From Rubrivivax sp. (GTDB taxonomy: Bacteria > Pseudomonadota > Gammaproteobacteria > Burkholderiales > Burkholderiaceae_C): DNA of 64,000 nt. This document shows positions 34,970 through 62,611 of this stretch, piece by piece (positions within the stretch are counted from its first letter, which is position 1; each line of letters begins with the position of its first letter). The stretch spans positions 124,001-188,000 of the forward strand of contig JAHBZS010000001.1 in NCBI GenBank assembly GCA_019635285.1. The letters run 5' to 3'. The notes beneath the pieces were generated by a model. It did not search any database, was not told the origin of the DNA, and saw only the letters and a list, made by a program, of their open reading frames with translations. The position numbers and the translations under genes were made by a program.

Positions 34970-35977
34970 ATGCCATCCCGCCTCCTCGTCTTCCCCGACG
35001 ACACTGCCCGGTCCCTGATCGATGCGCTGAATGGCGCGCAGCAGTCGGTCAACATCCGCATGTTCCTGTTCACCGACCCGGACATGCTGGCGGCCGTGCA
35101 GGCGGCGCGCCGGCGCGGCGTCCAGGTGCGCGTGATGCTCAACCCGCGGCGCCGCGACGGCAGCAGCGACAACGAAGACACGCGCCAGGCTCTGCTGGAC
35201 GCCGGCGTGGAGGTGCGCGACAGCAGCCCGGCCTTCGCGGTGACGCACCAGAAGTCGATGACCATCGACGGCAAGATCGGCTTCGTCGAGTCGCTGAACT
35301 GGGAGACGCGCGACCTGACCGAAACGCGCGACTATGCGGTGGTCGTCGACGACCCGCTGGAGGTGTCGGAGATGCAGCGCTGCTTCGACGCGGACTGGAC
35401 GCACACGCCATTCACGCCGCACCCGAAGTCACGCCTGATCTGGTGCCCGAACAACGGCCGCGCGCGCATCGCCGCCTTCATCGACGCCGCACGCAGCACG
35501 CTGTGGCTGCAGAACGAGCGCTACCAGGACACGGTGATCATCGAGCGGCTGGTGCGCGCGCTGGCGCGCGGCGTCAAGGTCCACATCATGGCGCGGCCGC
35601 CGCACAACCTGAAGAAGGACAAGCTGATCGAAGGGGTCGGCGGCCTGCGCATCATGCGCGACGTGGGTGCCAAGGTGCACCGGTTGAAGCACCTGAAGCT
35701 GCACGGCAAGATGCTGCTGGCCGACGAGACGCGCGCGATCATCGGCTCGATCAACCTGGCGCCGGGCAGCTTCGACGAGCGGCGCGAGCTGGCCATCGAG
35801 ACCGAGGCGCCGGAGGTCATCGACCGGCTCAGGGAAGTGACGCGCCGCGACTGGCAGAGCTCCGAGATGCTCGACCTGAGCGACGACGGCGTGCTGGCCG
35901 ACCTGAGCAAACACCACCATGGCCACGCCGGCGCCAAGCAGCTCGCACTGAAGGCCGGCGGCGCGAAGAAGAAGTAG
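34970..35977 (+). CDS. phospholipase D-like (HKD) family protein
   Basis: A 335-residue protein with two HKD half-sites: HQKSMTIDGKIGFVESLNWE in the N-half and LHGKMLLADETRAIIGSINLAPGSFDERREL in the C-half (the second has Asp-Glu after the spacer instead of Asp-Gly). It lacks a signal peptide or membrane anchor, unlike cardiolipin synthases, and has a His/Lys-rich C-terminus (KHHHGHAGAKQ, KKK). Probably a cytosolic phosphodiesterase or phosphatidyltransferase-like enzyme; substrate unknown. It diverges from purE. Confidence 0.85.
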   Translation: MPSRLLVFPDDTARSLIDALNGAQQSVNIRMFLFTDPDMLAAVQAARRRGVQVRVMLNPRRRDGSSDNEDTRQALLDAGVEVRDSSPAFAVTHQKSMTIDGKIGFVESLNWETRDLTETRDYAVVVDDPLEVSEMQRCFDADWTHTPFTPHPKSRLIWCPNNGRARIAAFIDAARSTLWLQNERYQDTVIIERLVRALARGVKVHIMARPPHNLKKDKLIEGVGGLRIMRDVGAKVHRLKHLKLHGKMLLADETRAIIGSINLAPGSFDERRELAIETEAPEVIDRLREVTRRDWQSSEMLDLSDDGVLADLSKHHHGHAGAKQLALKAGGAKKK

Positions 35978-36001
35978 CGGCGCGTCAGCTCGGGATCGAT
36001 A

Positions 36002-36292
36002 TCTGCTTCCGGCGCGTAGCGGTCGGCGGCAACAGCCACCCCTGCGAGAGTTCAGCGCATCGCGCCAGGCGACACCTGCCACGGGCTCATGCTGCGGCGG
36101 TCGGCCCTTCGGACCGACTGCACTGTGGTGCTCGCCCCGGGGTCGCGCCGATAACTCACTTCGCGCCTTGGCAGGCGCTACGTTCAAACAGTATCGGCGA
36201 GTCAGATCACGAAGCGCGCTGCGCGCGCCGACCCCGGGTCTGCGCTCCTCGTCGCCGCAGAAATCGCCCCTGCCAGGTGCCGCCTGACGCGA
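36002..36292 (-). ncRNA. structured RNA, copy A (predicted)
   Basis: Read on the minus strand, this region repeats the layout of copy B at 36339 with different stem sequences. Long closing stem: 36267-36292 with 36060-36086 (few mismatches). Inner stem: 36229-36238 with 36136-36145, a perfect 10 bp. Hairpin GCGCCT/AGGCGC at 36163-36178. Hairpin GTCGG/CCGAC at 36100-36118. Shared unpaired sequences include the 12-mer ACTGTTTGAACG (36181-36192), AGTGAGTT, GCGAGCACC and the 3' tail GCGCCGG-AGCA (near 36003-36015). Loops are conserved and stems differ but remain paired, so selection on RNA structure is likely. No reading frame explains it. Confidence 0.7.
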
Positions 36293-36338
36293 GATCGTGG
36301 TCTCGGTGGCGTTCGCTACGAACCCCACGAGCGCTGCC

Positions 36339-36627
36339 GCAAAGCCGGGCCCGGGCAGGACGCGATGCGCCTCTGAGGCGCCGAGGAGCGCAGCGCCCAT
36401 GGCCAGCGCGCGCAGCGCGCCACAACCTCTGACTTCGTCGCGACTGTTTGAACGGAGCGGACATAGTCCGCGCAGTGAGTTGGCGACGAGGCCATGGGCG
36501 CGAGCACCGCAGGGTAGTCGGCGCAGCCGACCGCCTCAGCGAAGCGTCGCGGCCTGCCCGGGCCCGGCTTTGCCGCACCCAAACGTCGCACACCAAGCGG
36601 TGTTTGGATGTCGGCTATGCGCCGGCA
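36339..36627 (+). ncRNA. structured RNA, copy B (predicted)
   Basis: A 21-bp perfect inverted repeat closes the element (36339-36359 with 36553-36573), continued inward by CGCGA/TCGCG (36361-36365 with 36547-36551). Inside are a perfect 12-bp stem (36393-36404 with 36490-36501), a hairpin GCGGAC/GTCCGC (36457-36471), and a hairpin GTCGGC/GCCGAC (36517-36531). ACTGTTTGAACG is at 36443-36454. A 3' hairpin CCAAAC/GTTTGG and the tail GCGCCGGCAGCAA follow. Copy A matches in loops with compensatory stem changes. It may belong to a known Burkholderiales repeat RNA family (for example the Betaproteobacteria toxic small RNA); that is unverified. Confidence 0.7.
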
Positions 36628-36640
36628 GCAACCGCCGCCG

Positions 36641-37540
36641 TCAGTAGCCGCGCACGCGGTCGACCAGGTTGTGCGGCACCTCGCCGCGCTGCAGGCAGCG
36701 CCAGCCTTGCACAAACTGCTCGGCGATGGTCTGGGGCGACGACTGCGCCGCGATGTGCGGCGTGATGGTGATGCCCGGCACGTCCCACAGCGGGTCGTCG
36801 GCCGGCAGCGGCTCGCGCGACTGCACGTCCAGCGCCGCGCCCGCCAGTTGGCCGGTGCGCACGGCGGCGATCAGGTCGGGCTCGACGACGTGCGCGCCGC
36901 GCGCGATGTTGATCAGATAGCTGCCGCGCGGCATCGATGCAAACGCGCGCGCATCCAGCAGGCCTTCGGTCTGCGGCGTCAACGGCAAGGCGCACACGAT
37001 GATGTCGCTGCCGCCCAGCACCGCCTGCAGCGACTGCCCGGAATGCCGGCTGTAGCCGGTGACCTGGAAGCCCACCGCCTGCAGCATGCGCGCCACGGCG
37101 CTGCCCATCGTGCCCATGCCGAGCACGCCGACGCGGCTGCGCAAGGCGCCGATGGGCTGCCGCACCCATTGCCGCGTGTGCTGCTGCGCTTCGTAGGCGG
37201 CCAGCCCGCGCGCATGGCGCAAGGCCATCAGCACCACGAGCTGCGCAATGCCGTCGGCCTGCTCCACGTCGACGATGCGCGAGACCTGCACCCGCGGCAA
37301 CAGCTCCGGCACCAGCAGCTTCTCGACACCGGCGCCCACCGAACAGACCCAGCGCAGGCGCGGCAACCGCGCGGCCACGCCGGCCGGGAAGCGCCAGCCC
37401 AGCACCGCCTCCACGTCGCCCAGCGCCGCATCGGCCAGCCCCGGCTGGTATTCGAGCAACGGCAGCTGCGGATCGATGGCGTGCACGGCATCGACAAACA
37501 CCTGGGCCGGCAGCGGATGGGTCAGCAACAAGGTCTTCAT
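36641..37540 (-). CDS. 2-hydroxyacid dehydrogenase, glyoxylate/hydroxypyruvate reductase A-like
   Basis: A 299-residue NAD(P)-dependent D-2-hydroxyacid dehydrogenase of the GhrA group: VCSVGAGVEKLL, VGVLGMGTMGSAVARMLQAVGFQVTGYSR (Rossmann GxGxxG), LPLTPQTEGLLDA, NIARGAHVVEPDLIAAV (catalytic Arg), and ITITPHIAAQSSPQT (catalytic His). It probably reduces glyoxylate or hydroxypyruvate. It overlaps the upstream epimerase gene by 4 bp (ATGA). Its stop codon lies close to the 3' end of RNA copy B, which converges on it. Confidence 0.9.
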   Translation of the reverse strand: MKTLLLTHPLPAQVFVDAVHAIDPQLPLLEYQPGLADAALGDVEAVLGWRFPAGVAARLPRLRWVCSVGAGVEKLLVPELLPRVQVSRIVDVEQADGIAQLVVLMALRHARGLAAYEAQQHTRQWVRQPIGALRSRVGVLGMGTMGSAVARMLQAVGFQVTGYSRHSGQSLQAVLGGSDIIVCALPLTPQTEGLLDARAFASMPRGSYLINIARGAHVVEPDLIAAVRTGQLAGAALDVQSREPLPADDPLWDVPGITITPHIAAQSSPQTIAEQFVQGWRCLQRGEVPHNLVDRVRGY

Positions 37541-38433
37541 GCGATCAGGCCTTCGGCCACGGTGGGATAGCGCAGGCGCAATTTCAGTTCGGTCTTGAGC
37601 CGGCGATTGTCCAGGCGGCGCGATTCGCTCATGAAGCTCAGCTGCAGCGGCGACAGCCGCGTCGCCGCGTCGGCACGGCCGATGCGCGGCGGGCGCGGCA
37701 GGCCGCACAGGTCGGCCGCCAGGTCGAAATAGTCGCCCATGCGCAGTTCGCTGTCGTCGCAGACGTGCAGCGCGCGCTGCGGCCGCGCGCGGTGCAGCGC
37801 GGCCACGCAGGCGCGCGCCAGGTCGTCGGCGTGGATGTGGTTGGTGTACACGTCGTCCTCGGCGGCCAGCACCGGCGTGCCGCGCTGCAGCCGCTCGCGC
37901 GGGTGGCCGCCTGCGCGGTCGGACGCGTAGATGCCCGGGATGCGCAGCAGCGACACCGTGGCGCCGGTACGCCGCCCGTAGTGGCGCAGCCGGGCCTCGG
38001 CGTCGGCGCGGCGCCAGGCGCGCGCGGTGCCGGGCCGCAGGGCGCGGGTCTCGTCGAAGCGCGCGCCGCCGCAGTCGCCATACACGCCGCTGGTGCTGGC
38101 ATAGACGATGCGCCGCACGCGGCCGACACGCGCCAGCGCCGCCAGCAGGTGCCGGGTGCGCGTGTCATGCTCGCCGTCGCCGGGCGGCGGCGCCAGGTGC
38201 AGCACGGCGTCGGCCAGGCCGGCCAGCCGGCCCAACGTCGCCGGCTGGTCCAGGTCGCCGCACAGCGGCACCGCGCCCGCGTCGCGCAGCGCCGCGCGCC
38301 GGGCGGGGGACGAGGTCAGCGCCAGCACGCGGTAGCGGCCGCGCAATAGCCGCAACACGCGCAGGCCGACATCGCCGCAGCCGACGATCAGCAGCACGGG
38401 CCGGCGCGAGCGGCGGTTGGGTGGCAACGACAT
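37537..38433 (-). CDS. NAD-dependent epimerase/dehydratase-like protein (extended SDR, YeeZ-like)
   Basis: A 298-residue atypical extended SDR: LLIVGCGDVGLRVLRLL (GxGxxG variant), ALTSSPARRAALRDAGAVPLCGDLDQPATL, YASTSGVYGD with the usual Ser/Tyr region, and NHIHADDLARACVAAL. This pattern is that of the YeeZ-like NAD(P)-binding proteins often found beside GhrA-type reductases in betaproteobacteria. The start at 38433 is chosen as the family N-terminus (the frame extends upstream only as antisense). Substrate unknown. Confidence 0.85.
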   Translation of the reverse strand: MSLPPNRRSRRPVLLIVGCGDVGLRVLRLLRGRYRVLALTSSPARRAALRDAGAVPLCGDLDQPATLGRLAGLADAVLHLAPPPGDGEHDTRTRHLLAALARVGRVRRIVYASTSGVYGDCGGARFDETRALRPGTARAWRRADAEARLRHYGRRTGATVSLLRIPGIYASDRAGGHPRERLQRGTPVLAAEDDVYTNHIHADDLARACVAALHRARPQRALHVCDDSELRMGDYFDLAADLCGLPRPPRIGRADAATRLSPLQLSFMSESRRLDNRRLKTELKLRLRYPTVAEGLIA

Positions 38434-61348: not shown

Positions 61349-62611
61349 CTAACGCCGTCGCCACACCGCGGCAAAGAAGCCGTCGGTACCGTGGCGCTGG
61401 GGCCACAGTCGCAGGCGGCCCTGCGCATCCAGGTCGGCGGCCTGGGCCACATGCGCCTGGGCCAGCAGCTCGCCGGCGGCCAGGGGTTCGAAGGCCGCGG
61501 CCTGCGCCGCCTGGAAGGCGTCGGCCACGTCCTCGTTCTCGGCGCGCAGCGGGCTGCAGGTGGCGTAGACCAGCCGCCCGCCGGGCTTCAGCAGCCGCGC
61601 GGCGCTGTCCAGGATGGCCGCCTGCTTGGCCTGCAGCTCCTGGATGGCCTGCGGCGACTGGCGCCACTTCAGGTCGGGGTTGCGGCGCAGCGTGCCCAGC
61701 CCCGAGCAAGGTGCATCGACCAGCACGCGGTCGATCTTGCCGGCGAGGCGCTTGACGCGCTCGTCGCGCTCGTGCGCCAGCTGCGCCGGATGCACGTTGC
61801 TCAGGCCACTGCGCGCCAGCCGCGGCTTCATGGCGTCCAGCCGGTGGCCCGAAGTGTCCCAGGCATACAGCCGCCCGGTATTGCGCATCGCCGCGCCCAG
61901 CGCCAGCGTCTTGCCGCCGGCGCCGGCGCAGAAGTCCACCACCATCTCGCCGCGCTTGGGGTCGGTGAGCAGCGCCAGCAGCTGGCTGCCCTCGTCCTGC
62001 ACCTCGACCTCGCCGCGCGTGAACACACCCAGCTTCTGCAGCGCCGGTTTGCCCTGCACGCGCAGGCCCCAGGGCGAATACGGCGTCGGCTGCGCGTCGA
62101 TGCCGGCCTCGGCCAGCTCGCGCTGCACCGCCTCGCGCTTCGTCTTCAGCACGTTGACGCGCAGGTCCAGCGGCGCCGGCTGCAGCAGGGCCTGGCACAG
62201 CGCCGCGAAGGCCTCGGCATCCATTTCCGCGCGCAGCGCGCCGGCCAGCCAGTCGGGCAGGTTGTGGCGCAGCTTGTCGGGCAAGGTGGCGGGATCGATC
62301 GCGCGGCAGCGCGCCAGCCAGGCCGCTTCGTCGGCATCGAGCGTGCCCTGCAGGAAGCTGTCTTCGCCCTGCCAGCCCAGCAGCACCAGCCGGCGCTCCA
62401 GCGGGCCGCGGCCCGACTGCGCCAGATGCTGGTACAGCAGCCGCCGGCGCAACACCGCATAGGCGGTCTCGGCCAGCGCATGGCGCTCGCGCGGCCCCAG
62501 GCCGCGCTGCGTGCGGAAGAAAGCGGACACCACGCCGTCGGCAGGCGCGTCGAAACGCAGCAGCCGGCGCAACAGCTCGACCGCGAGCTCGAGGACGGCC
62601 TGCGCACGCAT
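61349..62611 (-). CDS. 16S rRNA (cytosine-C5)-methyltransferase RsmB/RsmF-type
   Basis: A 420-residue RNA m5C methyltransferase. The N-terminal half is a helical RNA-binding-like domain; then comes the NOL1/NOP2/Sun core: VQDEGSQLLALLTDPKRGEMVVDFCAGAGGKTLALGAAM (SAM motif), VDAPCSGLGTLRRNPDLKWR (PC motif), and the nucleophile Cys in YATCSPLRAENED. RsmB (C967) is the most likely assignment, but no NusB-like N-terminus is evident and rsmF-type cannot be excluded. Upstream it diverges from the DUF1345 gene; purN lies just beyond that. Confidence 0.85.
   Translation of the reverse strand: MRAQAVLELAVELLRRLLRFDAPADGVVSAFFRTQRGLGPRERHALAETAYAVLRRRLLYQHLAQSGRGPLERRLVLLGWQGEDSFLQGTLDADEAAWLARCRAIDPATLPDKLRHNLPDWLAGALRAEMDAEAFAALCQALLQPAPLDLRVNVLKTKREAVQRELAEAGIDAQPTPYSPWGLRVQGKPALQKLGVFTRGEVEVQDEGSQLLALLTDPKRGEMVVDFCAGAGGKTLALGAAMRNTGRLYAWDTSGHRLDAMKPRLARSGLSNVHPAQLAHERDERVKRLAGKIDRVLVDAPCSGLGTLRRNPDLKWRQSPQAIQELQAKQAAILDSAARLLKPGGRLVYATCSPLRAENEDVADAFQAAQAAAFEPLAAGELLAQAHVAQAADLDAQGRLRLWPQRHGTDGFFAAVWRRR

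Follow-up and report, generated by a model that had tools for sequence, protein, structure and literature searches.

The intergenic region between a PLD-domain gene (PLDc_2, 34970-35977) and a 2-hydroxyacid dehydrogenase gene (minus strand, about 36641-37570) raises the question of what its two structured, oppositely oriented copies are: a pair of RNAs, as a preliminary description proposed, or a piece of DNA that moves. That description placed the copies at 36002-36627 of the window, i.e., the whole 64,000-nucleotide stretch analysed here. Their presence was confirmed. Seven copies from the same genome were aligned, of which one is truncated where its contig stops and another carries a deletion within arm A; the similarity among them breaks off at about 36010 and 36624, which refines the ends. 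The flanks of these seven copies are unrelated, and the shared unit is a single element of about 615 bp composed of divergent structured monomers, A on the minus and B on the plus strand, with short inverted ends (Table 1). The outer ends of the element are the 3' tails of the two monomers, and in the window copy left and right end are complementary at 10 of 11 bases. The inner stems and the long closing stems are complementary as had been claimed, and the small hairpins GCGGAC/GTCCGC (B) and GCGCCT/AGGCGC (A) are indeed present in the sequence. A protein-coding element was rejected, given that long ORFs are found on either strand here just as in the rest of the GC-rich window and that none of the five ORFs crossing the element had a Pfam match; the conserved protein frame named in the preliminary description as an argument against structured RNA was not seen.

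Table 1. Features of the twin-hairpin element in the window, with one example of the core-less twin-hairpin family
Feature	Position	Strand	Basis
Whole twin-hairpin element	36010-36624	no strand	7-copy own-genome alignment
Left end CGGCGCGTAGC, 3' end of monomer A	36010-36020	+	sequence and 7-copy alignment
Monomer A closing stem P1, 3' side	36060-36099	-	inverted repeat, 40 nt, 80% complementary
Monomer A conserved core	36097-36255	-	covariance model R1, 164 bits; copy itself in the model's alignment
Monomer A inner stem P3, 3' side	36136-36145	-	10/10 complementary
Monomer A inner stem P3, 5' side	36229-36238	-	pairs with 36136-36145
Monomer A closing stem P1, 5' side	36253-36292	-	pairs with 36060-36099
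Centre between the monomers' 5' ends, with near-palindrome GTGGCGTTCGCTACGAACCCCAC	36293-36334	no strand	sequence and 7-copy alignment
Monomer B closing stem P1, 5' side	36335-36380	+	inverted repeat, 46 nt, 87% complementary
Monomer B conserved core	36378-36534	+	covariance model R1, 141 bits; copy itself in the model's alignment
Monomer B inner stem P3, 5' side	36393-36404	+	12/12 complementary
Monomer B hairpin P4, GCGCGC(GCA)GCGCGC	36406-36420	+	sequence and fold
Monomer B domain P5 (TCGTCGC/GCGACGA)	36435-36489	+	sequence, fold, covariation
Monomer B P5 conserved internal loop ACTGTTTGAACG / AGTGAGTT	within 36435-36489	+	sequence, fold, covariation
Monomer B hairpin P6	36457-36471 (inside P5 domain)	+	sequence, fold, covariation
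Monomer B inner stem P3, 3' side	36490-36501	+	pairs with 36393-36404
Monomer B hairpin P7, GTCGGC(GCA)GCCGAC	36517-36531	+	sequence, fold, covariation
Monomer B closing stem P1, 3' side	36532-36577	+	pairs with 36335-36380
Right end GCTATGCGCCG, 3' end of monomer B	36614-36624	+	sequence and 7-copy alignment
Core-less twin long hairpins, example	G016:C269:1440-1830 (L065, L337)		

Both monomers fold into very stable structures, with energies of -194.4 kcal/mol for B (z -7.4) and -175.3 kcal/mol for A (z -5.6) that none of 100 shuffles equalled in either case; under DNA folding, B reaches z -8.4. Each monomer consists of a long closing stem (P1) of nearly free sequence and a branched core of about 160 nt. 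P1 has a median of 33 Watson-Crick pairs, and in 141 of 149 dereplicated copies it beats the best shuffled control. The core begins with an internal-loop stem (CGAG-N-A-N-CGCAG on both strands), followed by the variable stem P3, the hairpin P4, a single strand ending in ACTGACTCG and the stem P5 with the loop CTGTTTGAGCG / AGCGAGTT, after which the hairpins P6 and P7 complete it. The conserved internal loops are CGAGNANCGCAG (both strands), ACTGACTCG and CTGTTTGAGCG / AGCGAGTT. In 107 distinct copies, 97.0% of 4902 pair cells form pairs (25-45% in slid structures), two-sided change affects 39 of 46 pairs (shuffle mean 26, with 0 of 500 shuffles reaching 39), and the covariation score is 0.524 versus 0.140 for shuffled and at most 0.059 for slid controls. 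The alignment behind these values was fitted to the covariance model, hence leaning to its structure, and copies from the same genome are related; selection on structure stands despite this, because of the slid and shuffled controls and because the stems are visible in the raw sequences. One pair distinguishes copies with TGAACG...AGTGAG from those with TGAGCG...AGCGAG, being G-C in 74, A-T in 33 and broken in 0 cells, and its neighbours can be read as tandem sheared G-A pairs. Selection for structure in the monomers is thus strongly supported. Its claim of selection for RNA structure holds in the part that concerns structure; the part that concerns RNA is weakened by the failure to find a sigma-70-like promoter or a terminator, by the GNA triloops and the mobile-DNA behaviour described below.

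A unique structured RNA pair was rejected, since the own-genome and genus searches revealed a multi-copy family instead. The element, whole or partial, was found at about ten places in its own genome, which has 15 matches to a covariance model of the ~160-nt core (R1, built from 35 cores). At the genus level, with strict filters that lost some weak matches, R1 matched 52 of 71 genomes (1 to 27 matches per positive genome), so that species of one genus vary from 0 to 27; two of the 19 genomes below threshold (G053 and G068) have a DNA match. In the family, 126 of 299 genomes and 65 of 141 sampled genera were positive, and since at most nine candidates were scored per genome, family copy numbers are lower bounds. 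Only 2 of 369 genomes of the class had a match, namely the own genome and one from another family, whose match is weak (70.9 bits) and again has a divergent partner (40 bits). Carriers among the matches listed are Rubrivivax, Piscinibacter, Variovorax, Pseudacidovorax, Hydrogenophaga, Ideonella, Xenophilus, Quisquiliibacterium, Rhodoferax and Rhizobacter, R1 having been run on 80 of 118 pattern-matching stretches; one stretch of Planotetraspora fits the pattern, but R1 did not confirm it. The plasmid and phage collections gave no match to the window copy at the sensitivities used, the plasmid collection none to two relatives, and IMG/VR none to one exact pattern, and a plasmid or phage origin was therefore rejected. 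One matching record among the genome contigs, Variovorax WS11 (1.3 Mb), is labelled as a plasmid.

The head-to-head arrangement, which had been considered unusual in itself, turned out to be the usual layout of close core pairs in the family, although not an obligatory one. The 80 named loci contain 117 R1 matches (8 of 125, cut by locus ends, were dropped), which form 44 head-to-head pairs with gaps of 109-431 bp and leave 29 unpaired, several of them close to a contig end. One of the unpaired matches (L203) lies in tandem next to a pair, as the third core of that locus, and the other 28 are alone in their locus; a further, weak tandem core occurs in L131. The 122 matches of seven fully listed genomes, counted by reading the table, comprise 39 head-to-head pairs and 44 unpaired cores, and all 27 matches of genome G018 are unpaired. 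A long inverted repeat takes the partner's place at 12 of 19 unpaired cores in a first set (one genome contributes 4 of the 12 and a second one 2, and at L203 the repeat is the tandem copy's own neighbour) and at only 2 of 17 testable cores in a second. With unpaired cores this common, and the repeat so rare in the second set, the twin form is not strictly needed.

Where pairs exist, they can be copied as a unit. Seventeen copies from Rubrivivax PRO12 can be aligned along the entire unit, each showing the two arm types in one and the same order, and for 37 of 37 arms the nearest neighbour is the same arm type in another copy. For labels (genome or genus) with at least two loci, 72 of 88 cores are nearest to another locus of their own label, 14 to another label and 2 to their own mate. 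Pairs with a wide centre (L044, L105, L123, L162 and L199) were read for an autonomous copy, with domain searches at L044 and L123. In L044, whose monomers lie 829 bp apart (one of them weak, 68 bits), a PIN-domain ORF and a MazE-type antitoxin ORF form a toxin-antitoxin-like cargo (718-1385), while L123 has a small ORF without Pfam match, read as lipoprotein-like (803-1168), between monomers 805 bp apart.

The locus itself differs among genomes. In G022, only 25 bp separate the PLD gene from a convergent class-II fructose-bisphosphate aldolase gene (fba), and this gap contains no element; in G016 it holds a twin-hairpin element that has no core. In the own genome, the PLD gene adjoins the window element and fba adjoins another copy on contig C40, each on its 3' side, and C40 ends inside that copy. 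A rearrangement between copies would explain this synteny break (window 35978-36640 versus C40:37641-38975), and so would an assembly join. The core-less twin-hairpin family was found in 5 of 71 genus genomes (G016, G022, G046, G063 and G064), mostly in several copies each, and G046 has no R1 match. The end motif GGCCATGCGCCG, present in 3 of 4 aligned core-less copies of G022, resembles the GGCTATGCGCCG of the window copy, a sequence similarity that suggests a common chassis for the large-core and core-less families.

Regarding known RNAs, Rfam 15 gave no match at the gathering score in the window or in 16 related loci. The only match up to E 5 in the region was the radC RNA (RF01754; 20.8 bits, E 0.099), which falls short of the gathering score of that family (40) and does not lie on the same strand as monomer B; other rows were weak and at chance level, and a known Rfam RNA was rejected. 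The Betaproteobacteria toxic small RNA RF02278 was rejected as well, since it exceeds its cut-off only elsewhere in the own genome (C23:123132-123195, 56.7 bits), at a site unrelated to the twin-hairpin element. The preliminary description had left the choice between a known repeat RNA and a new one. The Rfam searches revealed no known family, but the Burkholderiales-1 motif, a structured-RNA candidate of Burkholderiales that appears as a table row with no Rfam accession in Weinberg et al. 2010 (PMC2864571), could be part of the twin-hairpin family.

The base pairs themselves carry information on the folding molecule. Core helices contain 90 G-T versus 8 A-C cells (leaving out the half-unpaired outermost pair), which indicates that one defined strand per monomer folds; in P1 the G-T excess is only 159 versus 91. 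G-T amounts to 1.9% of the standard pairs in core helices (90 of 4697), a low value for RNA, and C(GNA)G triloops are unusually stable in DNA; a tRNA control for the G-T frequency comprised only six ARAGORN structures, mostly doubtful, and was not usable. Such triloops cap P4 in at least 97 of 146 copies (two GTGA tetraloops were listed) and are contained in P7 in 83 of 129, the remainder of P7 being GNRA (1), UNCG (2) or other loops (43). A similar loop-based argument, with UUCG loops, has been made for the STAXI motif (PMC2864571). A search of the element for sigma-70-like promoters and for terminators found none. We lean towards single-stranded DNA rather than RNA as the folding strand.

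The strongest rival is nevertheless a functional non-coding RNA family, in which the monomers would be transcribed, fold and act (for instance, by binding a protein) while mobile elements spread the copies. The elaborate internal loops with their strong covariation, the strand-specific G-T excess and the abundance of single cores would all fit, and transcription by read-through is likely, since 16 of 23 classed pairs lie between tandem genes (heuristic ORFs; 5 lie between convergent and 2 between divergent genes, and 4 more were unclassed). The absence of the promoter and terminator signals searched for, the scarcity of G-T wobbles, the use of GNA triloops instead of GNRA or UNCG and the variation from 0 to 27 matches between congeneric species all speak against this explanation, and we regard it as rather unlikely.

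The ends of the element bear on a second rival. Own-genome copies end near CGGCGCATAGC / GCTATGCGCCG (3 of 7 copies have the exact left end, and among the 6 long enough to include the right end, 2 have it exactly), PRO12 copies have the terminal inverted repeat GGCGCATTGCGG, those of G329 have CACTGCGTGG with extra tail hairpins, and some G210 copies have GAAGTTCG-like ends. The ends thus vary by lineage, and no motif common to the whole family stood out among the k-mers of 216 tails. Inspection by eye showed no target duplication at the aligned copies, including those of PRO12, so the exact ends are uncertain. Nor did any recurrent cluster resembling a transposase catch the eye next to the copies (heuristic ORF clusters, 182 loci); the largest flanking cluster, the only one checked with Pfam, is an ABC-transporter. 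An IS110-type transposase ORF (DEDD_Tnp_IS110) was found inside a degraded element of the own genome (L005 692-1354; contig C78, around 61506-61653), where the centre and one half of monomer A would otherwise be. As it replaces part of the element, it looks like a later insertion, and IS110-type elements may target such hairpins.

MITEs are small, gene-less, repeated elements with short terminal inverted repeats, and the element resembles them in all of these respects. If it were an ordinary MITE, i.e., a non-autonomous derivative of a known IS whose full copy escaped sampling, with the fold simply carried along, the inverted repeats, the copying as a unit and perhaps the IS110-type ORF would be accounted for. 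However, it conserves its internal fold from lineage to lineage but not its ends, inspection by eye revealed no target duplication, and no parent IS was noticed beside the copies. The close pairs of the seven fully listed genomes have no room for a transposase between the arms, the IS110-type ORF appears to be a latecomer, and the selection on the fold exceeds what we would expect of an ordinary MITE. This origin seems distinctly unlikely to us.

A slightly poorer candidate is a REP-like structure that serves the host, as DNA or RNA, in bidirectional termination, mRNA protection or protein binding, similarly to BIMEs, its spread being incidental. The intergenic location, with few sites between divergent genes (2 of 23, heuristic ORFs), and the very stable hairpins on both strands fit such a role. 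On the other hand, a simple role leaves the conserved ~160-nt branched core unexplained, no terminator-like site was found, and R1 detected nothing above its threshold in 19 of the 71 genus genomes, although two of them, G053 and G068, do give a DNA match. We consider a host-serving role improbable.

The closest known layout is that of REPINs, described by Bertels and Rainey 2011 (PMC3116915) as a replicative unit of two inverted hairpins that is intergenic, spreads within genomes and has no gene; their hairpins are predicted in single-stranded DNA or mRNA. The inverted doublet is also the usual copied unit here, although unpaired cores exist. The element is much larger, about 615 bp, whereas the spacings between REPs in that study are most often 71 and 110 bp, and its monomers of about 300 nt, with a median of 33 closing pairs, compare with REP hairpins of 20-40 bp (PMC3733652). 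Unlike REPINs, it has a branched covarying core and is not associated with RAYTs. Y1_Tnp (PF01797) was present in 23 of 52 genomes with the element and in 6 of 19 without it; at E 1e-4, none was found in the own genome (15 R1 matches, 94.5% complete) or in G018 (27 matches), and none of 30 Y1 loci, about 1.5 kb on each side, contained the element. A REPIN moved by a RAYT (Y1, IS200/IS605-like) transposase, which would match the layout and the lack of a visible target duplication, is disfavoured by these counts and highly improbable. BREs, another repeat of Betaproteobacteria, are also mostly intergenic and mobile-like, but their description as tandem arrays of about 90 bp sets them apart (Hot et al. 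2011, PMC3110155). No published description of the element was recognised among CC-licensed PMC papers.

What we have, then, is a repeated element, spread over the family, with a usual head-to-head layout and a strand-specific fold kept by compensatory change, whose two arm types are copied jointly in one well-sampled genome (PRO12). The best explanation, which we consider somewhat probable, is that of a small piece of mobile DNA in which no gene is recognised, made of two inverted ~300-nt hairpin monomers and recognised in trans through their strand-specific fold. One strand would become exposed as single-stranded DNA, be it during lagging-strand synthesis or following excision; exposure as a transcript is less likely. 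Each monomer so exposed would fold into a long hairpin topped by the branched domain. A recombinase or transposase encoded elsewhere in the genome could then recognise this fold and copy or move the unit into intergenic DNA without target duplication, by analogy with what has been proposed for REPINs. Mobile DNA is favoured by the 15 own-genome matches, the unrelated flanks, the presence in 65 of 141 genera, the copying as a unit and the presence or absence seen against G022, and also by the fold data, the GNA triloops, the low G-T content and the core-less family with similar ends. We count against it that no transposition was observed, that neither an enzyme nor a transposase cluster was noticed and Y1 is not associated, that unpaired and tandem cores occur (L203, L131), and that the window copy sits at a break that may be an assembly join. 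The absence of a target duplication by eye, the small G-T excess in P1 and the reliance of the DNA argument on general norms for G-T content and triloops weigh in the same direction, and a transposase end should not require so elaborate a core.

A bolder version of the mobile element, which we put forward only tentatively, is a new class with a twin-hairpin chassis and an exchangeable apical domain, in which the ~160-nt folded strand (single-stranded DNA or RNA) would be the substrate of a trans-acting Burkholderiaceae machine. If so, that machine would serve both the large-core and the core-less family, whose end motifs are similar.

At a practical level, contigs end inside copies of the element, C40 of the own genome being one example, and whether DNA or RNA, it can mislead RNA-discovery screens. 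Most likely we are dealing with mobile twin-hairpin DNA that carries no gene and is laid out like a REPIN, though on a far larger scale, and there is a fair chance that its machinery is new. In any case, a strongly covarying structured element with no Rfam match is present in 65 of the 141 sampled genera of this family. If it is RNA, it would represent a large new RNA class; if it is single-stranded DNA, selection at the DNA level would have produced covariation on a large scale, which is rare, and a transposition machine not yet described would be implied.
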